From: Marine Group III euryarchaeote CG-Epi1
GTDB taxonomy: Archaea; Thermoplasmatota; Poseidoniia; MGIII; CG-Epi1
DNA: 50,091 nt
Direction of reading: 5' to 3'
Assembly: GCA_001875345.1 (NCBI GenBank)
Contig: MIZA01000002.1
Span: 1-50,091 of the forward strand
Part shown: in pieces, positions 17,869-34,141 of the stretch
Position numbering within the stretch: the first letter of the stretch is position 1
Layout: each line of letters starts with the position of its first letter
Notes under the pieces: generated by a model
What the model was told of the DNA's origin: nothing
Database searches by the model: none
Seen by the model: only the letters and a program-made list of their open reading frames with translations
Position numbers and translations under genes: made by a program

Positions 17869-20268
17869 TTACAGACGACGTGATATCAGTGCTATGCCGA
17901 TAACTGCCATCACACCTAGTACTATTCCGAAGCCAGGTGTTTCTTCATCATCTCCAGAGTAAGGAGTAGATGTTTCAGATTCTGTTGAGTCTCCAACTAT
18001 TACTTTTCCAACCATTTGCATTCCAACATGTGGCTCACAGATGTAGTGGAAGGTTGTTGCTTCTGTAAAAGTATGTCTGAAATCAACAGTCTTTGCTGTC
18101 TCTCCACTGTAAATTCCTCCTTCTTTCCTCATTTGATCTCCCTCTGAAGAAATTTCGGCAACATTGTGTAGATCAGCTGAATCTGTCCATTGCCAGCATA
18201 CAGTTTCTCCTACCTTGATAGTTAGAGAAGCTGGGCTGTAAGCATATCCTGTAGAGTCAAGGCCTATGACATGATCGCATGTAGGCATTGAATCTTCTTC
18301 CTTAGGCTCTTCTTCCTTGACCGGCATCAATACCTTGTCAATGACATGAATAACTCCATTGCTAACAGGAACATCTGCAATGATTACGGTTGCATCGTTT
18401 ACTGAGACTGTGTCACCTATCATGAATGAGAGTTTATCGCTGCTAAGAGCTGTAGCTTCCATTCCATCTGTTAAATCTGATGACATGACCTTTCCACTAA
18501 CAACGTGCATTAGCAAAATATCTGCAAGTGCAGCTATTTTTTCATCTGTATCATAATCATCAAGATTAATTCCTGCTGCAGTAAATGCTTCATCAGTTGG
18601 AGCGAATACTGTGAAAGGACCTTCTCCTTTCAATGTGGTAGTCAAATTAGCTTTCTCTAAAGCTGCAACCAACGATGTGTGAATGGTTGTAGCTGCCGCC
18701 GTAGTTGGAATATCAACTGAAGGAATCCAAGACTTATCGCAAGTATCTGCTGTCTTAGTTACATCTACAGTGTGGCTAACCGGATCATAACATATCTCAC
18801 CTGCTGGTGGAATCATTACTTTATCGATAACGTGAATTACTCCATTACTAACTGGAACATTTGCTAGAATAACATTAGCTCCGTTAACTGATACATTGCC
18901 TTCAGATATACTGAAAACTAGAGTACCGCCATTTAGTGCGGTGGCCATCATTCCGTTTGAAAGGTCGGTTGACATTACTTTTCCGCTAACTACGTGATAA
19001 GTTAGAATGTTTGCAAGCGTGTCTGCGTCGAAATCATCTAAGCTAATTCCTGCTGCTGTGAAAGCTGCATCAGAAGGTGCGAATACTGTGAAAGGACCTT
19101 CTCCTTTCAATGCAGTGGTCAAATTAGCTTTCTCTAGAGCTGCAACCAATGATGTGTGAATGGTTGTAGCTGCTGCTGTAGTTGGAATATCAACTGAAGG
19201 AATCCACATTTCATCGCAGGTTTCTTCTGTTTTTGACAAATCTACAGTGTGTGTATCCATGTCATAGCAGATTTCTCCAACCGGAGGCGTTACTGTTGTA
19301 AGTGAAGGAGGCATCAGAACTTTATCAATAATGTGAATAATTCCGTTAGAAGTTTCAACATTTGCACTAGTAACTGTTGCATCACCGTTTAGAACTACAG
19401 TGTCTTCACCGTAAAAATTAACGGTTATAGGTTCTTGAATTAAGGTATTAACTTCCATTCCATCTGAAAGATCACTTGACATTACACTTCCCATTGTAAC
19501 ATGGTAAGATAGAATCATAGCTAGGGTTGCATTTTCTTCATCCGTATCAAAGTCGCTTAAATTCAATCCCATTTCTTCAAAAGCTGAATCTGTAGGTGCA
19601 AATACTGTATATGGTCCGTCACCTGAAAGTACGCCTACTAAGTTTGCATGAGCCAATGCTGCAACCAATGAAGTGTGTTCACCAGTAGAAACTGCAGTTG
19701 CTGGGATGTTAGGTAGTGTAACTGTTTCAGTAAGTGTAAATTCACCTATCATATTTGAGTGTACAGTACAGTAGTAACTCAAAGTATCATCAACTGTGAA
19801 ACCATCTTCAAACGAAATTGTAAAAGTTTCTGAACCAGCTATGCCTGAGTTACTTGACCCGTCTCCAGTCAATGTGATTTTGGCACTAGATTCTTGCTCG
19901 TAACCAGAGTCACTGATGTAGAATGGGTGGCTTGTAGCTCCGTTAAGTCTGTGAAAAGTGTACGTGTTTGTAATGTCTAATTCGCTGATTTCGGTAGTTC
20001 CTTCAGAATCTGCGTAAAATTCAAAGTAAGGTTCAGACATTGAACCTCCGCTAACATAAACATGAGTGACATCGTCACCTTCTTCGGCACTAGCTCCGTA
20101 GCTAGATTGATCTATACCAACGCTCAAAGCCAACATGATTACGAGAGGCGTAAACATGAAAGGAGCGTAATCTTTCATAATTTTCAAAACTGTGAAAACC
20201 GTAAAAACCGCCATAGCGGCAACGGCAGGCACTAGTCTGATAATTTGTTCAACAATTGTTGCATTCAT
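17869..20268 (-). CDS. Surface protein with three fasciclin (FAS1) domains between two cupredoxin domains
   Basis: A 799-residue membrane-anchored or secreted protein. Hydrophobic segments at 8-30 and 36-52 precede a cupredoxin-like domain (about 66-180) with candidate copper ligands His114, Cys167, His170, Met173. FAS1 domains follow at about 188-320, 359-488 and 518-650, each with the TVFAP(T/S)D-x-AF and NGxIHxIDKVxxP motifs. A second cupredoxin (664-758) has His701, Cys744, His747 and Met750. The tail PGFG, span and SRR fits PGF-CTERM. FAS1 domains mediate adhesion in known proteins; the copper domains suggest redox activity. Domains 2 and 3 share near-identical linkers, indicating recent internal duplication. 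A TATA-like site at 20291-20300 supports the start. Confidence 0.92.
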   Translation of the reverse strand: MNATIVEQIIRLVPAVAAMAVFTVFTVLKIMKDYAPFMFTPLVIMLALSVGIDQSSYGASAEEGDDVTHVYVSGGSMSEPYFEFYADSEGTTEISELDITNTYTFHRLNGATSHPFYISDSGYEQESSAKITLTGDGSSNSGIAGSETFTISFEDGFTVDDTLSYYCTVHSNMIGEFTLTETVTLPNIPATAVSTGEHTSLVAALAHANLVGVLSGDGPYTVFAPTDSAFEEMGLNLSDFDTDEENATLAMILSYHVTMGSVMSSDLSDGMEVNTLIQEPITVNFYGEDTVVLNGDATVTSANVETSNGIIHIIDKVLMPPSLTTVTPPVGEICYDMDTHTVDLSKTEETCDEMWIPSVDIPTTAAATTIHTSLVAALEKANLTTALKGEGPFTVFAPSDAAFTAAGISLDDFDADTLANILTYHVVSGKVMSTDLSNGMMATALNGGTLVFSISEGNVSVNGANVILANVPVSNGVIHVIDKVMIPPAGEICYDPVSHTVDVTKTADTCDKSWIPSVDIPTTAAATTIHTSLVAALEKANLTTTLKGEGPFTVFAPTDEAFTAAGINLDDYDTDEKIAALADILLMHVVSGKVMSSDLTDGMEATALSSDKLSFMIGDTVSVNDATVIIADVPVSNGVIHVIDKVLMPVKEEEPKEEDSMPTCDHVIGLDSTGYAYSPASLTIKVGETVCWQWTDSADLHNVAEISSEGDQMRKEGGIYSGETAKTVDFRHTFTEATTFHYICEPHVGMQMVGKVIVGDSTESETSTPYSGDDEETPGFGIVLGVMAVIGIALISRRL
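18600..19210. repeat. Direct repeat inside the fasciclin gene
   Basis: The stretch at about 18600-18732 recurs at about 19078-19210 with few changes (offset 478 bases). It covers the TVFAP core and the linker VDIPTTAAATTIHTSLVAAL of FAS1 domains 2 and 3, so one module was duplicated recently or is homogenised by conversion. Confidence 0.8.
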
Positions 20269-23686: not shown

Positions 23687-24718
23687 ATGGTACCTTGGTA
23701 TCGCTCATATCTTATTCCTTTCGGACTAGCTTTCATCGCTTTTCTCATTATAACCACAGGAGGGTGGATTCGTATTAATGATGCTGGAGAAAGCTGCCCG
23801 GACTGGCCTACTTGTTTCGGTACTTGGGGTTTTGATGTTTCTGCAGATGAGCAGGAAGAATGGTGGAATGAAAATCCTGATGAAATAGACTCTAGAGGTG
23901 GAACCCATAGATACACAACTTATCAAATTTTTACTGAATGGGCGCACCGAGCATTAGTTGGAGTAATAGGCATTCTTGTTGCTTATAGTCATTACACGGC
24001 TTGGTCACTAAGAGATAGTATCGGTACTAGAGTATACAAAATACATTTTGTATCTAGTATGTTCCTTATTATGCAAGCAGTATTAGGTTACGTAACTGTT
24101 GATCTTGATAATGCGCCTTGGACCGTATCTTTACATCTCTTTATGGCTCTAATTTTTACGACTTCACTAATTACTGTGGGTTTTGTTTGGTGGCAAAATC
24201 AGGTTGGGCTACCAGAGTACTTTAAAATTAGTAAAATCAGTACTAAGTTTAAAAATTATATTTGGTATCTGTGTTTAATTGTACTTATACAATTAATGAT
24301 AGGGGCGTACCTTTCGACTAGTTATCATAGAGCCGCTTGTGATATTGGATTTTACAAAGGATGGCCTCTATGCCAAGGTTCTGCATTGCCCACTCTCGAA
24401 CAATTTGGTATTATTCTAAATTATGGACATAGATTATCTGCAATTGTGGTAGGTTTTTTACTTCTGTATGTATTGAAAGAAATAAAAAGTGAGCTAAAGA
24501 ATTCAAACGTTGAGAAATTTCTGAAAATAGCCAGTTTCTTTTACTTTGGAAACATACTTTTAGGTGGTTTATATGTAGTCACAGCTGTTGATGGGGTGTT
24601 TCTAGGTTGGCTCTCGCTTCTACATTTACTTGTAGGGGCTTGCGTATTCCTATCATTAGCAACAACATATTTACTAATTAATTTAAGCGAATTCAAGGAA
24701 ACAAATGTCTCAAACTAA
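23687..24718 (+). CDS. ctaA: Heme A synthase CtaA/COX15
   Basis: Oxidises the C8 methyl of heme O to a formyl group, making heme A for the oxidase. This is an eight-span membrane protein of 343 residues with the two-half architecture: each half has a Cys pair near a WP-x-C motif (CPDWPTC near residue 37 and the PLCQG region near 225) and heme-ligand histidines (EWAHR, LHLF, YGHRLS, LHLLVG). The extra extracytoplasmic insert after the first Cys pair is acidic. First gene of the ctaA-ctaB-cox operon; its end overlaps ctaB by 14 bases. Confidence 0.96.
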   Translation: MVPWYRSYLIPFGLAFIAFLIITTGGWIRINDAGESCPDWPTCFGTWGFDVSADEQEEWWNENPDEIDSRGGTHRYTTYQIFTEWAHRALVGVIGILVAYSHYTAWSLRDSIGTRVYKIHFVSSMFLIMQAVLGYVTVDLDNAPWTVSLHLFMALIFTTSLITVGFVWWQNQVGLPEYFKISKISTKFKNYIWYLCLIVLIQLMIGAYLSTSYHRAACDIGFYKGWPLCQGSALPTLEQFGIILNYGHRLSAIVVGFLLLYVLKEIKSELKNSNVEKFLKIASFFYFGNILLGGLYVVTAVDGVFLGWLSLLHLLVGACVFLSLATTYLLINLSEFKETNVSN

Positions 24719-25613
24719 ACCATCACTACTGAAAATCTATTGGATTTTAATGAAACCTAGGGTCGTTTTCTTGTTACAGGTGACTGCACTTTGTGGAATT
24801 TTTACCTATGATTTTAGTGAGGGATATGATAATGGAAGAAACTACGTTGATAGCATCTGGACGTCCTTAGTCGTTTTACTTGGAGGGACAATGGCTAGTG
24901 GAGGGTCTATGGCTGTAAATATGTGGTACGAAAGAGATATTGACCCCTTGATGGAGAGGACTGAAAATCGACCAATTCAATCTGGTTTTATATCTGCTGA
25001 GCATGCATTGTTGTTCGGAATAACAATATCATGTGCAGGAGTAGCTCTTGTAACTTTTCTAACTAATATTAATGCTGGAATTTTGACTGCTGCAAGCGCT
25101 TTATTTTACACAGTGGTATACACCATGCTCCTCAAACGAAGAACTCCACAGAACATTGTGATTGGGGGTTTGGCTGGCTCTACTCCTCCTGCAATAGGGT
25201 GGGCTGCTGCTTCCAATAACCTGTTTGAATTACTACCTTGGCTCATGGTATTGACAATCTTTCTTTGGACCCCTGCACATTTTTGGGCGTTAACTCTGTC
25301 TAAAAGACGCGATTATGGAGAAGCTGGAGTACCAATGCTCTCAGTTGTGAGCGGCGAAGACACAACGAGAAAATACATATTTCTATATTGCATATGTTTA
25401 GTGCTAAACTCAATTTCTATAATAGTGAATGGAAATACTGGATTAATATTTTTAATTTCAGGAATTAGTCTTTCTGTATATTTTGCATACCTTGCTCAAA
25501 CCTTAACAAAAACCAAATCTGAAGACGATGCGTGGAATTTATTTAAATTTTCAAATATGTACCTTTTTACATTCTTCATTTTACTTGTTTTAGATACTGC
25601 ATATACTGTATAA
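24705..25613 (+). CDS. ctaB: Protoheme IX farnesyltransferase CtaB (heme O synthase)
   Basis: Adds the farnesyl chain to heme B to give heme O, the substrate of CtaA. This UbiA-family membrane prenyltransferase of 302 residues has the first Asp-rich prenyl-diphosphate motif (NMWYERDIDPLMERTENRP, about residues 80-98) and the conserved WTPAHFWALTL plus DYGEAGVPML region (about 187-212). It overlaps ctaA by 14 bases, consistent with coupled translation, and is followed by a gap of about 60 bases before subunit II. Confidence 0.97.
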   Translation: MSQTKPSLLKIYWILMKPRVVFLLQVTALCGIFTYDFSEGYDNGRNYVDSIWTSLVVLLGGTMASGGSMAVNMWYERDIDPLMERTENRPIQSGFISAEHALLFGITISCAGVALVTFLTNINAGILTAASALFYTVVYTMLLKRRTPQNIVIGGLAGSTPPAIGWAAASNNLFELLPWLMVLTIFLWTPAHFWALTLSKRRDYGEAGVPMLSVVSGEDTTRKYIFLYCICLVLNSISIIVNGNTGLIFLISGISLSVYFAYLAQTLTKTKSEDDAWNLFKFSNMYLFTFFILLVLDTAYTV

Positions 25614-25676
25614 TCGTACTTATCTTTAATAATGCCATTCTATATACAAAGAATACTTTACTTTAAAAGGCAAAAA

Positions 25677-26384
25677 ATGTCCATAATCAGTGACTTAATT
25701 TACTTCGATAACCCAGCGATATGGGATAGTTTCGGAGGCACCAGCTCGGGTATTGGTGGACTGACATGGCAAATGTTCATTTGGTCTGTAATTGTTGGAC
25801 TCTTAGTAATCACTTGGCTGATATACAACTTAATTTTCTTTAGACACAAAGAAGGCGATCCAGAGCCGAAAGATGCTCTGAAAGCTGGAGTTTTTCCACA
25901 TGAAAGGGGAGATGTTAAAATAGAATTAACATGGACAATAGCTCCACTTATTTTAGTAAGTTGGCTTACATTTCTATCTCTGGCTCCATTGGATTACATG
26001 TGGGATATTCCTGATAATGAAGAAGCTGACGTTACTGTAGAAGTTACTGCAGGATCTTGGTATTGGGGATTTGAATATGCTAATGATTACGAGAAACCCG
26101 ACGAATTTACGAAATGCTCTTCTAACATCAATTGTCTAGAAGTTCCAGCAAACAGTATTATTCGTTTTAATGTTACATCGGTTGATAATTTGCACGCTTT
26201 TTACCTTCCTGACATGGGAATTAAACAAGACGCAGTTCCTGGATTGAATACTGCCACTTGGGTTGATACTAGCATTGTATCTGCTAGAGATGAACCTTAC
26301 CGAATTTACTGTACTGAGTATTGTGGAAATAGCCACTCTCAGATGCTAGCTGAAATTTACGTAACTGAGGTTAGCAATGCTTAG
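25677..26384 (+). CDS. coxB: Cytochrome c oxidase subunit II (CuA)
   Basis: Receives electrons at the binuclear CuA site and passes them to subunit I. Two spans (about 30-52 and 80-102) are followed by an outside cupredoxin domain. All CuA ligands are present: His in NLHAFYLPDMGIKQDAVPG and Cys-Cys-His-Met in YCTEYCGNSHSQM. The frame also opens at an ATG at 25632, but AAAGG at 25666-25670 stands 6 bases before the ATG at 25677, so that start (235 residues) is chosen. A TATA-like run at 25640-25646 might give the oxidase subunits a separate promoter. The end overlaps subunit I by 8 bases. Confidence 0.95.
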   Translation: MSIISDLIYFDNPAIWDSFGGTSSGIGGLTWQMFIWSVIVGLLVITWLIYNLIFFRHKEGDPEPKDALKAGVFPHERGDVKIELTWTIAPLILVSWLTFLSLAPLDYMWDIPDNEEADVTVEVTAGSWYWGFEYANDYEKPDEFTKCSSNINCLEVPANSIIRFNVTSVDNLHAFYLPDMGIKQDAVPGLNTATWVDTSIVSARDEPYRIYCTEYCGNSHSQMLAEIYVTEVSNA

Positions 26385-28698
26385 AAGTAAACTGATAGGG
26401 CTAGGAATATTATTAAGCATTATTTTTGCTGTAACTGCAATTCCAACTGGAGAAACGAATCCGGGAGGAATTGATCCAAGTATAAGCACACTAGTAGAAG
26501 CAAATGGATGTAGTTGTCACAACATAGGTGACGGTGACATGAATAATCCGAACTCGGCAGTTATTCTAAATTTAACAATGCCTTCTAATTTTAGTGCAGG
26601 TGAAACTTACACTTTAGTTCTCAATATTTCAGGTGGACCAAATGACATTGCCCCAATGGAAAATGGACCTAATATGGGAGGTTTTATGCTGAAAGTTTCT
26701 ACCGGAACTTTGACTCCTATTGATGATAACGTATGGAAACCAGAAGATAGTAGTTACTTAACTCACACAGGTGGAGAAGAAGGCCAAGGTGGTGACGGAA
26801 ATAACTTAAGAGAATGGAGTTTTAATTGGACTGCTCCAGACAGTGATTCTTTAGTTGCAGAATTTATGGTTTATGGAAATTCTGTTAACGGAAATGCTTA
26901 CGAAGATAGTGGAGGTATGGGAAATAGTGGAGACTATTGGAATTCAGGAACATTCCTTCTAGCTGGTAAAAATGCTCAAATTACAGATGGAAGTGCACAT
27001 GGTGAACTTTCAGGGCCTAAAAAAGTAGTATACGGTTTTGGTATTGTTTTCATCACTTTAGCTGTTGTAGTGGTTGGATATCGAATGGTAGATCAAGATG
27101 AATCATTCGAAGAAGTAATGAAGAGCTACTGGAAATGGATTTATCCTTGGCTTACAACTACAGACCACAAATATATCGGTACCCTTTACATCGTAACTGG
27201 ATTTGCTTGGTTCTTCATTGGAGGAATTCTAGGCCTATTAATTAGATGGCAATTATATGAGCCGCGTGTTGATGGTGACTTCTTAACTTATCAAGAATAT
27301 AATTCTACATTTACAATGCATGGAACTACTATGATTTTCATGGCTGCCATGCCTATTATTTTTGGATTTGCAAATTACTTGATTCCTCTTCAAATTGGTG
27401 CAAGAGATTTAGCATTCCCAAGGCTTAATTCATTCGGTTATTGGCTACTTCCTACTGGCGGTATCGTATTGTACATGGGATACTTCACTGGAGGTGCAGG
27501 AGACGTAGGTTGGACTGGATATGCGCCATATTCTTCAGGTGCATCTGCTACAAGGCCAGGTACTGATTTCTGGGTTGCAGGGCAATTAATGCTGGGAGCA
27601 TCTTCAACACTAACTGCAGTTAATTTCCTAGTTACAATGCTGAGAATGCGCGCTCCAGGAGTTTCTCTAATGAAAATGCCGCTATTTGCTTGGTCTATCC
27701 TTGTAACTGTATTCTTACTTCTATTATCTATTCCTGTATTCACCGTTGCTTTAATTTTACTAATGGCAGACCGTACTTTTGGAAGTTTATACTTCTCAGG
27801 TCCAGACTCTGACCCAATTTTGTGGCAGCACTTATTCTGGTACTTTGGACATCCAGAAGTTTACATTGTTATTTTACCTGCTTTTGGCGTTTTATCTGAA
27901 ATAATATCTACATTTTCAAGAAGACCAATTTTTGGATATACTTCTATGGTTTATGCAATGGCTACAATAGGAATAATTTCATTCGTAGTTTACGGTCACC
28001 ATATGTTCACTACAGGTGCTGACCCATTATTCCGTTTCATTGTAATGCTGACTACAATGTTAGTTGCTGTGCCTACAGGAATTAAAATTTTCAATTGGCT
28101 TGCTACTATGACTGGCGGATCTGTAGTTCTAAATACGCCAATGATGTTCTCATTAGGTACAATAATTACTTTCACTATCGGAGGAATTACTGGAATTATT
28201 TTAGCTTCGATTCCATTGGATATCGCTTTCCACGATACATATTTCGTTGTAGCTCACTTTCACTATGTGCTGATCGGAGGAACTATGTTTTCCTTCATAG
28301 CTGGAGTTTACTATTGGTATCCTAAAATGACTGGGAAGATGATGAATGAAAGATTAGGAATTATACATTTTGCAGCTACATTCATCACTTTCAACGCTGC
28401 ATTTTATCCGATGCATAACGTAGGAATATCAGGTATGCCAAGAAGATATGCTACATATGATGCATCATTGACTGAATTAAATCAGTTCATTAGTATTTTC
28501 GCTATTCTATTCGGATTAGCGCAACTGATTTTTGTTTACAACGTATTTTACTCTTACAGAAACGGTAAAGAAGCTGGTGATAATCCATGGAATGGATGGT
28601 CTTTAGAATGGGCCACATCATCTCCACCTCCAGAAAATAGTTTCATTGAAATTCCTACATTACTCGATGCCGAAGAGGAGGCTAAAAAGAGTGAGTGA
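26377..28698 (+). CDS. coxA: Cytochrome c oxidase subunit I with N-terminal CxCH domain fusion
   Basis: Catalytic subunit reducing O2 at the heme a3-CuB centre. Numbering from the ATG, residues 1-22 are a signal peptide and about 30-205 a non-membrane beta-rich domain beginning with GCSCH (Cys45, Cys47, His48); a span at 215-235 leads into the normal subunit I from about 250. Heme a ligands are His315 and His629, heme a3 His627, CuB His492, His541 and His542, with Tyr496 cross-link and Glu494 (HPEVY), marking an A1-type proton-pumping oxidase. Normal subunit I is about 530 residues; this has about 240 extra. The extension resembles secreted choice-of-anchor-V/reeler-like domains that carry a heme-like Cys-His motif; heme binding is unproven because the spacing is CxCH, not CxxCH. 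Confidence 0.96.
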   Translation: MLRSKLIGLGILLSIIFAVTAIPTGETNPGGIDPSISTLVEANGCSCHNIGDGDMNNPNSAVILNLTMPSNFSAGETYTLVLNISGGPNDIAPMENGPNMGGFMLKVSTGTLTPIDDNVWKPEDSSYLTHTGGEEGQGGDGNNLREWSFNWTAPDSDSLVAEFMVYGNSVNGNAYEDSGGMGNSGDYWNSGTFLLAGKNAQITDGSAHGELSGPKKVVYGFGIVFITLAVVVVGYRMVDQDESFEEVMKSYWKWIYPWLTTTDHKYIGTLYIVTGFAWFFIGGILGLLIRWQLYEPRVDGDFLTYQEYNSTFTMHGTTMIFMAAMPIIFGFANYLIPLQIGARDLAFPRLNSFGYWLLPTGGIVLYMGYFTGGAGDVGWTGYAPYSSGASATRPGTDFWVAGQLMLGASSTLTAVNFLVTMLRMRAPGVSLMKMPLFAWSILVTVFLLLLSIPVFTVALILLMADRTFGSLYFSGPDSDPILWQHLFWYFGHPEVYIVILPAFGVLSEIISTFSRRPIFGYTSMVYAMATIGIISFVVYGHHMFTTGADPLFRFIVMLTTMLVAVPTGIKIFNWLATMTGGSVVLNTPMMFSLGTIITFTIGGITGIILASIPLDIAFHDTYFVVAHFHYVLIGGTMFSFIAGVYYWYPKMTGKMMNERLGIIHFAATFITFNAAFYPMHNVGISGMPRRYATYDASLTELNQFISIFAILFGLAQLIFVYNVFYSYRNGKEAGDNPWNGWSLEWATSSPPPENSFIEIPTLLDAEEEAKKSE
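28675..28681 (+). promoter_or_regulatory. Shine-Dalgarno fixing the coxC GTG start
   Basis: GAGGAGG lies 9 bases before the GTG at 28691, inside the end of coxA. It argues for that start against the in-frame ATG at 28646, which would overlap coxA by 53 bases. Confidence 0.7.
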
Positions 28699-29635
28699 TG
28701 GACACGATGAGCACCATGCTCACATAGAAACTCCTGCGCCTTTCTTGTTCTGTGTAGCCACTGCAATAATGTTTATTGGTTTAGTCATGGCTACTGCTGG
28801 CGGTGAAGATAAAACTGGAGACACTGGTTACTGGTTTGTATTCATCATAGGACTTATTGGTATTTTTACGGCATTTTTCATGTGGGTTCAGGATTATTGG
28901 AACCTAGAGGGCGAAGAAGACGAACACATAGAAACTTATCACAAGTTCTGGGATACTATTTCGACTCGAAAATTTGGAATGTGGATTTTCCTACTAACTG
29001 AAGTCATGGTTTTCAGTACATTACTAAGTGCATATTTGAGATACAGAGCATCAATGCCAGACTATTCTCCAGACATTGATTGTGGATTATACTTTGAAGA
29101 TTGCTGGGTACCTGCTGCCGATGTTATCAGAAGTCACTTAATATTTGGAGTGATTAATACATTTGCTCTTCTTTTAAGCAGTTTGACTGTTGTATTAGCA
29201 TTATATGCTGCTAAAAACAATAACCCAAAAGCTGTTACTAGATATCTGGCTGTTACTTTTGTCCTAGGTGCTATGTTCCTAGCCCTAAAATTATGGGAAT
29301 GGAATGAAATGAGACATTATAATTTCTGGGACGAATCTCACAACGGATGTGACGTTTTAGCAGGACAAAGTATCGCAGACCATTGTATTGCTCCAAAATA
29401 CGCGAATGGATTCTGGCTTGATACTAGTATTGAGGGCAGTACTTTTTACATTACTACAGGCATGCATGGTGCTCACGTCTTTATTGGGCTAATTGCATTA
29501 GGATACTTGATTGCAAAATCAAACAAAGATGGATACAATGAAGAAAACCATGAAACTATTGAGCTATTTGGACTATATTGGCACTACGTTGACTTGGTTT
29601 GGGTATTTGTATTCCCATTTTTCTATTTATATTGA
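28691..29635 (+). CDS. coxC: Cytochrome c oxidase subunit III
   Basis: Structural membrane subunit stabilising the catalytic core. The protein has a His-rich cytosolic start (SDGHDEHHAH), about seven spans, the conserved GMHGAHVFIGLIALG segment and the family C-terminus YWHYVDLVWVFVFPFFYLY. From the GTG at 28691 it is 314 residues. A hydrophilic loop with several Cys (about residues 125-145 and 215-235) is larger than usual. GTG overlaps the coxA stop and follows a strong Shine-Dalgarno. Confidence 0.95.
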   Translation: MSDGHDEHHAHIETPAPFLFCVATAIMFIGLVMATAGGEDKTGDTGYWFVFIIGLIGIFTAFFMWVQDYWNLEGEEDEHIETYHKFWDTISTRKFGMWIFLLTEVMVFSTLLSAYLRYRASMPDYSPDIDCGLYFEDCWVPAADVIRSHLIFGVINTFALLLSSLTVVLALYAAKNNNPKAVTRYLAVTFVLGAMFLALKLWEWNEMRHYNFWDESHNGCDVLAGQSIADHCIAPKYANGFWLDTSIEGSTFYITTGMHGAHVFIGLIALGYLIAKSNKDGYNEENHETIELFGLYWHYVDLVWVFVFPFFYLY

Positions 29636-29643
29636 GGTAAAAA

Positions 29644-30027
29644 ATGAGTGAAGAAACAAAAACTAAAAACAGCCACGATGAACACCATGACCATTCTTTC
29701 CCAAACTGGGTGACTTTTGGGCATACTGATGATCCTGTAGATGGATTCATCAAAATATTTGCGTGGCTAGTTTTTTGGACAATTCTAGAAGTATTGGCAA
29801 TCGTTCAAGAATTTGATTCGTTTGCATTGAATATGCTAATCCTATTCGGAATAGCTCTTATCAAATGCTGGTATATTTGCTCATTCTTTATGCACATGAC
29901 ATGGGATCCGCCGTTAGTCTATCAGACTGCATCTGTACCTTTGTTTTTCTTAGCTGTCTTATTTTTGGCGGTAGGACTAACTACTCCTGGTGCAGTAGAT
30001 GATTTGGCTACTATTTGTGGTTTCTAG
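29644..30027 (+). CDS. Cytochrome c oxidase subunit IV-like protein
   Basis: A 127-residue protein with a charged His-rich start and three spans (about 40-60, 63-85, 98-118). The core KCWYICSFFMHMTWDPP matches prokaryotic oxidase subunit IV/caa3-type small subunits. It is the last gene of the operon, 8 bases after coxC, with GAGGT 5 bases before its ATG. It probably stabilises the CuB site or assembly, as in related oxidases. Its stop is nested with that of the convergent DoxX-like gene (CTAG). Confidence 0.88.
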   Translation: MSEETKTKNSHDEHHDHSFPNWVTFGHTDDPVDGFIKIFAWLVFWTILEVLAIVQEFDSFALNMLILFGIALIKCWYICSFFMHMTWDPPLVYQTASVPLFFLAVLFLAVGLTTPGAVDDLATICGF

Positions 30028-30470
30028 AACTGAGTATATACAAATAAACCAAACATAGTCAGAATGTAGTAAGGAACCAACACTGCTGCTCCTTCATAGT
30101 CTTTTGAGATTCTTTGACCTAACATCAGAATAGCTAGAGATCCTGCTGCTAAAATTAAGCCCATTATTGCATATGAATAATCATCGTAAAATAAGGCCAT
30201 CAGCGAACCAAATATTGACAAAAGACCTGATAATATTTCAAATATTGTAACTTGGATTAAACCAAATGTAGAAAAATTGGCTAGTGGAGTCTTAGCAAAC
30301 TTACCTGTAATGAAATCTAATTCACCTTCCCAATTAAATATTTTATCAAAACCAGATTGTGTCATCACAATACCAAGAAAAACCGAAATACTCGCACCGA
30401 TTATGCTAACGTAGCTAAATTCAAGGTCAAGAAATACTAAATTGTCGTCACCGAATCCTAATAGTGTCAT
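30024..30470 (-). CDS. DoxX-like membrane protein
   Basis: About 148 residues with four spans. The segment QSGFDKIFNWEGELDFITGKF fits the DoxX family pattern (S-G-x-x-K after the first span, then a short amphipathic loop). DoxX proteins are linked to quinol oxidases and to oxidative-stress membrane complexes, so the place next to the oxidase operon fits, but the role is unknown. The frame also opens at a TTG (30488); a TATA box at 30504-30512 puts transcription near 30482, downstream of that TTG, so the ATG at 30470 is chosen. Confidence 0.8.
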   Translation of the reverse strand: MTLLGFGDDNLVFLDLEFSYVSIIGASISVFLGIVMTQSGFDKIFNWEGELDFITGKFAKTPLANFSTFGLIQVTIFEILSGLLSIFGSLMALFYDDYSYAIMGLILAAGSLAILMLGQRISKDYEGAAVLVPYYILTMFGLFVYTQF

Positions 30471-30503
30471 ACAATATAATCTGAACAAGGGTATTTGGGT
30501 TTA

Positions 30504-30512
30504 ACTTATATT
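30504..30512 (-). promoter_or_regulatory. TATA box of the DoxX-like gene
   Basis: AATATAAGT on the minus strand, 34-42 bases before the ATG at 30470, predicting a leader of about 12 bases. It overlaps the last codons and stop of the SCO-family gene upstream. Confidence 0.45.
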
Positions 30513-31986
30513 ACAACATAAGAAGTTGAATGTCGTGGTAAACCGAGGCGTAAGTCCATTCTATTCCTCTCCAAACTACTCTAACATTACCTTCCTTATC
30601 TATAAGGTATAACTTATTAGAATGACTAACTCCATAATTAGCTACCTCTTCAACTGCTTCATTTTCAAACTCATATCCTAATAAGTCTGAAATAATAGAC
30701 AACATATCGGTATCAGAAACGTGGTCTTGTTTCCAGTGCCCAAAATAATCTATAACCTCAGCAAGTTGTTCAGAAACATTAATTGGAGATGAACGATTAT
30801 CAATTCTGTGAACTAAATCATCATAAGACTCTCTGCCTACGAAAGTATCGACAACTTGTGGAAGGCCTGATGATAGATTTCCTTCTAATAAAACCCAACT
30901 TGGATATCTGCTCTCAAGTCCAAACTTAGTCATCATTGTCCCTTCTTCATCGAGGACGTAAGGCCAAGAAACGTTGTGCTCAGATGCGAAGTCTTCAATT
31001 GTAGAAATATCGTCTACGTTGCTACCTAAAGAATATCCACCAATCGATATTACATCAACTTGATCTGAATAATTTGCATGAAATTCTTTAAGATCAGGAA
31101 TTTGTGCGTTACAAACTGAACAATCTGTATGGAAAAACTCGATTAATGTTAGGTTGTTGTTATAGTAATCTCTAGATTTATGTGTTGAATTGTCTATACC
31201 TGGTAATGTCCAACTTGAAGGGAATGTTTGAGATACATATGCATCTATAGCTTGAAGCGCAAAGTCTTCACTTATTATTCCTCCTGCTTCGTTGAATTCT
31301 TCTAATGCTAAAATAATATCATACTCTATGCTTCCTTGCTCAAATGAAACATTTAGATTACTGTAATTAGGATCGGTAATACATACATCTTTACCGAAAT
31401 AGGTATCATTTGAATCCTGCATGAATCCAGGGTTACAATGGCATCCATCGTATCCTTCCATGTAATGCCCATTACCTGAGCAAGCTTCTTCATCGATGTC
31501 GACATATACTCTGTAATCTGCCCAAATAGAAACCATGTCTCCAAACGAATCGTTAGAAACGGATGTTAAAAATCTCCAGTCTGCATTATTATTAGCTGCA
31601 AAAGAGGCTAATCTTTCAGGCGTATCTCGCTCAGGGTCTACGGTTATTGTAATAAATTCTACAGACTCTCCATAATCATCACCCAATTCTTCCGATAGTT
31701 TTCTCAACTGATAAGTTAATGCTGGGCATATATCCGGACAATAAGTATAAACAAACGAAACTACCACTATTTTATCCTCGTACAATGTCAAATTAACAGT
31801 ATCTCCATTTTGATCAACTAATGAAAAATCTGGTGCTTCACCTGAAGGGCAAATTTCCTCAGAAACGTCTTCACAGTCTTCACCCCAAAATTTACCTGAA
31901 TCTCCCGAATTCGTAAGTGCATCTAAACAACCTGTTGATGCTAAGAACATAAAAACAATAAAAATTGTAGGAATACTTTGATTCAT
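30511..31986 (-). CDS. SCO1/SenC copper chaperone with nested EGF-like and thioredoxin-like domains
   Basis: A 491-residue lipoprotein (LASTGC lipobox, Cys20) that should deliver copper to the CuA site of subunit II. The SCO half-domain at about 45-163 has the CPDIC copper motif (Cys83, Cys87) and TVDPERDTPER; the third SCO ligand His455 is in YGVSHSNKLYLIDKEG near the C-terminus. Between them sit about 290 extra residues: a Cys-rich GCHCNPGF segment (about 169-202) like half an EGF domain, then a thioredoxin-like domain (about 270-395) with active site DCSVC. That domain is very like the protein encoded by the next gene upstream. Start: TTTATATAAG at 32008-32017 is about 26 bases from the ATG at 31986, favouring it over the ATG at 32001. 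Confidence 0.9.
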   Translation of the reverse strand: MNQSIPTIFIVFMFLASTGCLDALTNSGDSGKFWGEDCEDVSEEICPSGEAPDFSLVDQNGDTVNLTLYEDKIVVVSFVYTYCPDICPALTYQLRKLSEELGDDYGESVEFITITVDPERDTPERLASFAANNNADWRFLTSVSNDSFGDMVSIWADYRVYVDIDEEACSGNGHYMEGYDGCHCNPGFMQDSNDTYFGKDVCITDPNYSNLNVSFEQGSIEYDIILALEEFNEAGGIISEDFALQAIDAYVSQTFPSSWTLPGIDNSTHKSRDYYNNNLTLIEFFHTDCSVCNAQIPDLKEFHANYSDQVDVISIGGYSLGSNVDDISTIEDFASEHNVSWPYVLDEEGTMMTKFGLESRYPSWVLLEGNLSSGLPQVVDTFVGRESYDDLVHRIDNRSSPINVSEQLAEVIDYFGHWKQDHVSDTDMLSIISDLLGYEFENEAVEEVANYGVSHSNKLYLIDKEGNVRVVWRGIEWTYASVYHDIQLLML

Positions 31987-32020: not shown

Positions 32021-32623
32021 TCACTCGAGGTATTTTTCAATTTCTGCAGCCAATCGACTTTCTGATAATATGCCTGAGTGGCTGTAAACAATTTCTCCAT
32101 TTTTGATAAAAGCTAAGGAAGGATAAGATGAAAAACCATAATCTCGCATCAGATCTCCAGAGGGGTCATATAAATGAGGAAATTGCATATTATATTCAAT
32201 TTTGAAGTTTGCAATACTTGAAGCTGAATCTTGCCCATTCCCTAACTTGTAGCCACCTATTGCAAACATATCTACTTGTGAGGAGTAATTTGCATGGACA
32301 TCGTTCAAAATTGGTGCTTGAGTCTGGCAAGCTCCGCATTTAGAGTTAAAAAATTCAACAATTGTTAGGCGGTTATTGTAATAATCTTCTGAAGCATAAA
32401 CTTCACCTGACTGAGGATCTTCAAGCTCCCATTCTTCTGCACGAGGGTCGCCCATCTCATAGAAAAAAGCAAAATATACTCCTAATCCTACCACTAAAAT
32501 AACTGCTAAAGGAAGGCCGTAGGTCCACAATGCATCATTAGCTGAGGCTCTCCTAGCTTGCATTTTATCTTTAAAATCTTTAGATGATTTTTTTTCTAGT
32601 TTACGTTTCCTCTTCGATGCCAT
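32021..32623 (-). CDS. Membrane-anchored thioredoxin-like protein
   Basis: A 200-residue protein with a very basic cytosolic start, one span (about 33-52) and an outside thioredoxin-like domain (about 75-200) of the TlpA/ResA/DsbE type. The active site is KCGAC (CxxC) after IVEFFNS, and the cis-Pro is in SSYPSLAFIKNG. It probably exchanges disulfides outside the membrane with the VKOR protein, whose gene overlaps its start by 23 bases. The sequence YYNNRLTIVEFF and VHANYSSQVD-x-x-x-IGGY-x-LG are nearly shared with the nested domain of the SCO protein, so the two are recent paralogues. Confidence 0.92.
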   Translation of the reverse strand: MASKRKRKLEKKSSKDFKDKMQARRASANDALWTYGLPLAVILVVGLGVYFAFFYEMGDPRAEEWELEDPQSGEVYASEDYYNNRLTIVEFFNSKCGACQTQAPILNDVHANYSSQVDMFAIGGYKLGNGQDSASSIANFKIEYNMQFPHLYDPSGDLMRDYGFSSYPSLAFIKNGEIVYSHSGILSESRLAAEIEKYLE

Positions 32624-33095
32624 TTTTGTTAATTAACTCCTTAATTTCACTACCATATTCAGTTATGCAGAAAAAAGTTGCTGCGATTGTCAAAACAAAA
32701 GCGACTACGCAAAAAGGACACCATTCATGAATTATGAATGCCTCTGCATAAGTTAGATATGAACCGAAAATAACACCAATAACTCCAGTGATTGGTAAAA
32801 GAATTTTATTGTAGTAAGTACGTTCTAAGTCCATGTTCAGATATCTATCTAAGGACAATCCAATTAGCATCAAAAAACCGACAACTCCCAACCAAGCGAC
32901 TGGGATACCGAATAATTTTGCCTGATCGCTTGCGAGAACTACGCCACAATCTAAACCCGGAAGATTTTCTGTTGGACAGCCAGCCCCTTGGGAAATCAAA
33001 TGATGTAAATAAGACAAATATATCGCATCGATAAGGCCAACGAAAGAAATGAACATTATAATTTTCAATGACCTATCTTCCGATTCCATGCTCAT
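32601..33095 (-). CDS. Vitamin K epoxide reductase (VKOR) family disulfide oxidase
   Basis: A 164-residue four-span protein. The loop Cys pair (GCPTENLPGLDC), the VKOR core GIPVAWLGVVGF and the redox CxxC (WCPFC, about residues 126-130) are all present. In prokaryotes VKOR reoxidises a DsbA-like thioredoxin and passes electrons to quinone. The thioredoxin-like partner is encoded immediately downstream, overlapping by 23 bases. A TATA-like TTTATATG at 33115-33122 precedes the ATG at 33095. The pair likely makes disulfides for the Cys-rich oxidase and surface proteins here. Confidence 0.95.
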   Translation of the reverse strand: MSMESEDRSLKIIMFISFVGLIDAIYLSYLHHLISQGAGCPTENLPGLDCGVVLASDQAKLFGIPVAWLGVVGFLMLIGLSLDRYLNMDLERTYYNKILLPITGVIGVIFGSYLTYAEAFIIHEWCPFCVVAFVLTIAATFFCITEYGSEIKELINKNGIEEET

Positions 33096-33205: not shown

Positions 33206-34141
33206 ATGCACGGACCATCTGAAGGAGTAAGTGAAGAAACAGATGAAGCGAATTCTGCCGTAAAAATAGTTGGTGGAAACGTTTTCGTAGAACTAGACCC
33301 TGACCATCCAGGATTCAAGGATGAAGGCTATAGATCAAGAAGAAATGAGATTGCTAAGATTGCACTTGAATGGAACGAAATGTCCATGGATGAAAGAAGA
33401 TCAAAAAAGATCCCACATGCTCCATATTCTGAAGATGAAGATGCCGTTTGGGCTGCGATTATGGAAAGAATTACTCCAGTTCATGAAAAATACGCATGTA
33501 AGCAGTATCTTGAAAATGCAAGGAAATTAGGATTACCTAATGATAGAATACCACAATTACAAGAAGTCAGTGAGACACTAGAAGAAATGACTGGATTCAG
33601 ACAAGAACCTGTCGGAGGTTTAGTTCACCCCAAAACATTTCACACTGCTCTAGCAAATAGAGTTTTCCTTTCAACACAATACATTAGACATTCATCAAGG
33701 CCTTTTTACACGCCTGAACCTGATGTTGTGCACGAACTTGTTGGGCACACTGCAATGCTAGGTGTACCTGAATGGGCTGAACTTAATGTTCTATTTGGAG
33801 AGGCTGATATGAGAACTGAAAGTGAAGCTGCAATCAATCGCCTTGGATCTGTTTATTGGTATGTTCTTGAATTTGGAACTTGTCGTGAAGAAGGAAACGT
33901 GAAGTCGGTAGGGCCTGGATTATTATCTTCGTTTGGTGAAATGGAACATGCATGTGCATCTGGTGAGGTTGAATATAGAAAACCTAATTTTGAAGAAATG
34001 GAAACTCTTGCATATGATGTTACGAAATATCAACCAATACTGTATGTCTGGGATTCATTTGAAGAGTTGTACGAAAAAACAAAAGAATTTGTGACAAATT
34101 GGGGAACTGATAACGACCCAAGAAAAGATTTACATCAATAA
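33206..34141 (+). CDS. phhA: Phenylalanine-4-hydroxylase (aromatic amino acid hydroxylase)
   Basis: A pterin-dependent non-heme iron monooxygenase converting phenylalanine to tyrosine. The family signature FYTPEPDVVHELVGH (about residues 170-184) supplies the two iron His, and the Glu ligand is in YWYVLEFG about 45 residues later. The 311 residues match bacterial PhhA, with an acidic N-terminal extension of about 20 residues and no ACT regulatory domain. It is alone on its strand, next to the convergent DUF2237 gene. A pterin-4a-carbinolamine dehydratase homologue, the usual partner, is encoded at 40270. Confidence 0.95.
   Translation: MHGPSEGVSEETDEANSAVKIVGGNVFVELDPDHPGFKDEGYRSRRNEIAKIALEWNEMSMDERRSKKIPHAPYSEDEDAVWAAIMERITPVHEKYACKQYLENARKLGLPNDRIPQLQEVSETLEEMTGFRQEPVGGLVHPKTFHTALANRVFLSTQYIRHSSRPFYTPEPDVVHELVGHTAMLGVPEWAELNVLFGEADMRTESEAAINRLGSVYWYVLEFGTCREEGNVKSVGPGLLSSFGEMEHACASGEVEYRKPNFEEMETLAYDVTKYQPILYVWDSFEELYEKTKEFVTNWGTDNDPRKDLHQ

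Follow-up and report, generated by a model that had tools for sequence, protein, structure and literature searches.

Copper chaperones of the SCO1/SenC family (ScoI, YpmQ of B. subtilis and human SCO1) share a CxxxC motif and a distal histidine, and the copper histidine of the family sits in the Sco loop (PMC6696091). Among proteins with which thiol-disulfide exchange is associated, ResA (CEPC) and TlpA (CVPC) are both reducing, -256 mV (PMC5909903), the motif of DsbA is CPHC (PMC4460558), and during oxidative folding thioredoxin-like proteins pass electrons to VKOR enzymes (PMC4555120). HP0377, which has a CSYC site, acts as a reductase and as an isomerase (PMC5909903), an exception which makes redox direction guessed from such motifs a weak guide.

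The protein described here is encoded in a window of 50,091 nucleotides (the whole stretch of DNA that was analysed) from the Marine Group III euryarchaeote CG-Epi1 (Table 1). It resembles the SCO1/SenC proteins in its CxxxC and distal histidine, its core profile and its cytochrome oxidase neighbours, but differs from them in carrying a second redox domain inside the Sco loop. No SCO protein with a domain in this loop was found in the open-access literature. A profile search recovered one SCO only in the CG-Epi1 genome bin. The gene could instead start five codons further upstream, at an in-frame ATG. Towards the N-terminus, G19, C20 and D22 are invariant across nine relatives, as is the cysteine pair C38/C46, which is missing from the SCO proteins of the sister genus (g2) and may be a further substrate of the nested thioredoxin domain.

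Table 1. Features of the SCO gene and of its surroundings in the window.
Feature	Position	Strand	Evidence or remark
ctaA-ctaB-coxB-coxA-coxC-coxD cluster	23687..30027	+	ORFs, synteny
Cytochrome oxidase subunit II with CuA motif CTEYCGNSHSQM, presumed client	25632..26384	+	Pfam COX2 E 5e-13
DoxX/MauE-like membrane protein	30024..30488	-	Pfam DoxX E 2e-4, just under cut-off; position conserved
SCO protein with nested thioredoxin domain	30511..31986	-	491 aa + stop; ORF, Pfam, 11 full-length relatives
SCO core, C-terminal part, residues 447-491 (two strands and final helix)	30514..30648	-	excised-core profile match
His455, predicted third copper ligand	30622..30624	-	aligned with SCO histidine
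Helical hairpin following thioredoxin domain, residues 404-437	30676..30777	-	predicted helices 406-419, 425-435
Nested thioredoxin domain, residues 256-400	30787..31221	-	Pfam AhpC-TSA/Redoxin; model pLDDT ~90
Tyr361-cisPro362 of nested thioredoxin	30901..30906	-	YPS in 12/12
CSVC active site of nested thioredoxin (C289, C292)	31111..31122	-	CxxC in 12/12 nested domains
Helical hairpin preceding thioredoxin domain, residues 214-254	31225..31347	-	predicted helices 220-233, 240-251
Four-cysteine EGF-like piece (C169, C182, C184, C202)	31381..31482	-	weak Pfam EGF, E 0.017
SCO core, N-terminal part, residues 52-164	31495..31833	-	Pfam SCO1-SenC E 2.9e-30; solved SCO structures
CPDIC, predicted copper-binding cysteines C83, C87 (residues 83-87)	31726..31740	-	sequence; invariant
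Extra cysteine pair C38/C46	31849..31875	-	genus g1 only
Signal peptide with lipobox-like TGC (C20)	31927..31986	-	sequence
Membrane-anchored thioredoxin-like protein, relative of nested domain	32021..32623	-	45% identity, E 6e-30
VKOR homologue, partner gene of thioredoxin	32601..33095	-	Pfam VKOR E 1.7e-23

Three further observations were made on genes of the window. The coxA product (26377-28698) has about 230 additional N-terminal residues with a GCSCHN motif ahead of the oxidase part. A phenylalanine hydroxylase-like gene (33206-34141), recognized by sequence, adjoins the VKOR gene in both genera, and a long protein (17869-20268) resembles fasciclin repeats and plastocyanin-like parts by the appearance of its sequence.

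The earlier note on this DNA had put the CPDIC cysteines and His455 about 370 residues apart; 372 were measured from C83 to His455, 284 more than the 88 of ScoI (4wbj). The intact protein matched Pfam SCO1-SenC at residues 52-164 with 105.4 bits (cut-off 22.8). When the insert (residues 165-445) was excised and the protein rescored, the remaining core covered positions 2-134 of the 134 in this profile as a single stretch, and the score rose against every solved SCO compared, from 54.5 to 66.3 bits for B. japonicum ScoI (4wbj), from 47.0 to 57.6 bits for 4hde and from 27.7 to 36.1 bits for human SCO1 (2ggt). An alignment of 17 Poseidoniia SCO proteins shows nine invariant residues (C83, D85, C87, Y451, H455, D463, R469, W477 and D485), His455 aligns with the copper-ligand histidine of ScoI (4wbj), and the C-terminal part is 43-48% identical to the SCO C-termini of the sister genus. 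Two scans of viral contigs for extra SCO sequences yielded a single bacterial SCO, which was excluded because its C-terminus was misaligned. The completed profile, the rise in scores and the invariant residues together identify the last 45 residues as the missing end of the SCO core, and the same evidence places the insert in the Sco loop, between helix 151-157 and the last two SCO strands. The proposal that a thioredoxin-like domain with its own CSVC site interrupts the SCO core is thus borne out, at the Sco loop, by the Pfam matches and the excised-core profile.

A structure model built from nine full-length relatives alone reached a pLDDT of 45. Adding six stand-alone thioredoxin sequences brought the mean to 65.6, with the gain mostly in the thioredoxin domain. 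In this second model (pTM 0.41) the thioredoxin domain reached a pLDDT of about 90 and much of the N-terminal SCO part 72-80, with values below 50 at residues 440-457, around His455, and 470-478. Predicted elements at residues 459-462, 468-471 and 479-490 correspond to the strand-strand-helix end absent from the N-terminal SCO part, in a C-terminal part modelled at low confidence, and the predicted order of elements fits a thioredoxin-like fold interrupted before its final strand-strand-helix unit. The Foldseek matches listed are those of the thioredoxin domain.

Read from N to C, the insert has first an EGF-like piece (169-202) and a helical hairpin (220-251); the thioredoxin domain (256-400) follows, and a second hairpin (406-435) comes last. 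The Cys-rich EGF-like piece that had been reported earlier does contain its four cysteines, but since it matches Pfam EGF only weakly (E 0.017), 'EGF-like' is used here as a label for the cysteine pattern only. Comparison of this piece with the EGF-like pieces of other Poseidoniia SCO inserts was not significant (E at least 0.14), and homology between the two hairpins was unsupported (hhalign 12% probability; shuffles not significant).

The model, Foldseek and an alignment of 12 nested domains all indicate a thioredoxin-like fold with CxxC and cis-proline, and Pfam AhpC-TSA/Redoxin matches residues 258-367 (E 4.2e-22). Foldseek groups the domain with ResA, StoA and DsbE-type proteins, ResA and StoA being the best PDB folds among the entries listed (target-normalised TM 0.77-0.86). 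It falls below the cut-off of the curated ResA family (NCBIfam ResA, 50.1 bits vs 170). The CxxC dipeptide varies among nested domains, and the window's own site, CSVC, has no histidine; CxxC and Tyr-cisPro are kept in 12 out of 12. The domain thus shares its fold with TlpA, ResA and CcmG, with ResA as the best PDB match, but differs from them in being nested in an SCO protein, in never having CxPC and in its kinship to a VKOR-linked family.

This kinship is seen first in the neighbouring thioredoxin-like gene. The long near-identical segments said earlier to be shared by the two hold for the short runs HANYSxQVD, IGGYxLG and YYNNxLTxxEFF, but across the 101 aa aligned the identity is only 45% (E 6e-30). 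The stand-alone gene adjoins VKOR in both genera, and a relative does so in a distant Thermoplasmatota genome (L122); the order doxX-SCO-TRX-VKOR beside the cox genes is conserved. In trees the nested domain clusters with the VKOR-adjacent stand-alone genes. Among 28 nested and stand-alone domains, none has CxPC, 18 have CxHC and all have Tyr-cisPro, as against CxPC with Thr-cisPro in all 12 distinct CcdA-fused TlpA sequences read. Judged by these sequence characters, the donor is the VKOR-linked thioredoxin family (CxHC-type, Tyr-cisPro) and not the CcdA-fused TlpA type. Stand-alone members resemble DsbA-type oxidases and other VKOR-linked thioredoxins in adjoining VKOR and in the common occurrence of CxHC, whereas the nested copy, built into a copper chaperone, has no membrane anchor of its own.

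Genomes of the window's genus (g1) also encode a separate fusion protein of TlpA and a CcdA-like membrane part, although no full match to this fusion was found in the CG-Epi1 bin (87% complete). Within the family such fusions were noted at loci L056-L059 and L126-L139. Pfam DsbD_TM matched nothing in 21 family genomes; this negative was discarded because the fusions are present in those genomes by sequence.

Searching Poseidoniia genomes for the same architecture, as the earlier note had advised, gave full-length matches in 11 further genomes (52-96% identity), ten of them from genus g1, and all features of the 491-residue protein are conserved in them. The eleventh genome (G059) is assigned to another family; the matching 13.5-kb contig (L033, PAOK01000027.1) shows 94% identity in this protein and is probably misbinned. 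With the nested domain as query against 293 Poseidoniia genomes, matches at E <= 1e-9 were found only in family f1 and in G059. Three g1 members without the gene are incomplete bins, one of which (G009) has a contig that stops just after coxD. As judged from these searches, the nested architecture is confined to one Poseidoniia genus. All parts of the protein are under purifying selection, the nested domain giving dN/dS values of 0.036, 0.055 and 0.057 when the three closest pairs are compared; saturation of dS makes the figures from more distant pairs unreliable. The recurrence in 11 genomes together with purifying selection indicates that the architecture is not an artefact.

In five g2 genomes the locus reads coxC-coxD-doxX-TRX-VKOR-PAH with no SCO gene there, and the g1 SCO gene is positioned exactly between doxX and TRX. 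The SCO cores of the two genera are sisters (support 99/96), so the SCO gene itself was inherited and relocated. The nested thioredoxins form a single clade (100/100) on a long stem, which the best trees place with the g2 stand-alone genes (89/96 to 98/95). A copy made after the genus split and one made before it were neither rejected by the AU test (p 0.08-0.14), and rooting with three outgroup sets left the event undated. The suggestion that the neighbour was copied into the SCO gene is therefore upheld as to homology, restriction to the family and the g2 locus with TRX but no SCO, and the proposed tree delivered the clade; the trees leave unplaced whether copying came before or after the split. 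By sequence, the nested domain and the neighbouring thioredoxin share ancestry and the copy is old; the phylogeny shows a single capture, no later than the base of g1, with vertical inheritance thereafter.

Long inserts are not peculiar to this genus. Other Poseidoniia SCO proteins carry them at the same Sco-loop position, the Cys-His spacing ranging from 105 to 380 residues among those read, but no CxxC or thioredoxin domain was found in the inserts of the proteins read. They contain instead a Trp-rich domain of about 110 residues, present once or twice and matching no Pfam family, often a four-Cys EGF-like piece, an Asp-rich stretch resembling thrombospondin type 3 (E 5e-4, which does not reach the cut-off) or His/Asp-rich low-complexity sequence. 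Since long inserts occur class-wide, the 372-residue spacing, which the earlier note had contrasted with a usual 80-90 residues, is ordinary in Poseidoniia, and the thioredoxin content is the unusual part. The Poseidoniia Sco loop appears to be a hot spot for insertions. Inserts of widely differing content were observed at L019, L020, L022, L029, L103, L105 and L109, among others. Two SCO genes stand in tandem in L022, L023, L027, L028, L029 and L031, and in one of the two an Asp-rich, thrombospondin type 3-like stretch precedes the histidine.

The reading favoured here, with a probability of roughly 0.55, is that the protein is an SCO chaperone for CuA with a disulfide-exchange domain of VKOR lineage in its Sco loop. 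As an SCO-type copper chaperone it would deliver copper to CuA in the cytochrome oxidase encoded next to it; its two SCO halves, to go by the sequence profiles, would fold together and bring His455 to CPDIC at the copper site. The nested CxxC domain, tethered near this site, may then exchange disulfides with the SCO CxxxC, the CuA cysteines or both. Because the domain derives from the VKOR-linked CxHC/Tyr-cisPro lineage and not from CcdA-linked TlpA, an oxidising or isomerising role, perhaps with VKOR feeding it, is tentatively favoured over reduction of the TlpA type. A more elaborate version, in which a VKOR-fed nested domain toggles the SCO cysteines between a copper-holding dithiol and a copper-releasing disulfide and so couples quinone redox to copper delivery, is speculative and rather improbable.

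The earlier note had suggested that one molecule could both reduce the CuA cysteines and load copper; on this reading the nested domain would be a built-in TlpA-like reductase which keeps the SCO and CuA cysteines reduced. Three observations agree with such a role: in Bradyrhizobium, ScoI and CoxB are both reduced by TlpA (PMC6696091), the fold of the nested domain is of the ResA/TlpA type, and a search of 21 family genomes found no PCuAC, which is another CuA factor of bacteria. Its VKOR-linked ancestry, however, and the lack of the CxPC/Thr-cisPro pair seen in CcdA-linked TlpA of the same genus leave the reductase unlikely, if deserving of consideration, and no electron donor could be linked to the domain; that one molecule also does the job of TlpA on CuA is unsupported for a domain that is VKOR-linked and never CxPC.

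The insert could also be a docking module only, given that other Poseidoniia clades fill the same loop with non-redox material over spacings of 105-380 residues, and loop recognition matters for SCO-CuA transfer (PMC6696091). A recognition or spacer module, whose thioredoxin fold binds an oxidase subunit without redox catalysis, would scarcely be expected to retain CxxC and cis-proline in 12 out of 12 nested domains despite variation in the dipeptide, nor does it sit well with the low dN/dS of the domain, and it is considered improbable. An assembly error joining two independent proteins, or a decaying fusion, is refuted by conservation, the architecture and gene order being repeated in many genome bins with intact frames under purifying selection.

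The redox control of SCO and CuA cysteines differs between organisms and is unsettled. If the SCO chaperone with a VKOR-lineage exchange domain is correctly read, this natural fusion joins thioredoxin and copper-loop activities, so that the direction of exchange would be measurable in one protein. The class-wide filling of the loop further shows that in Poseidoniia the Sco loop can take up whole domains while the copper ligands persist.
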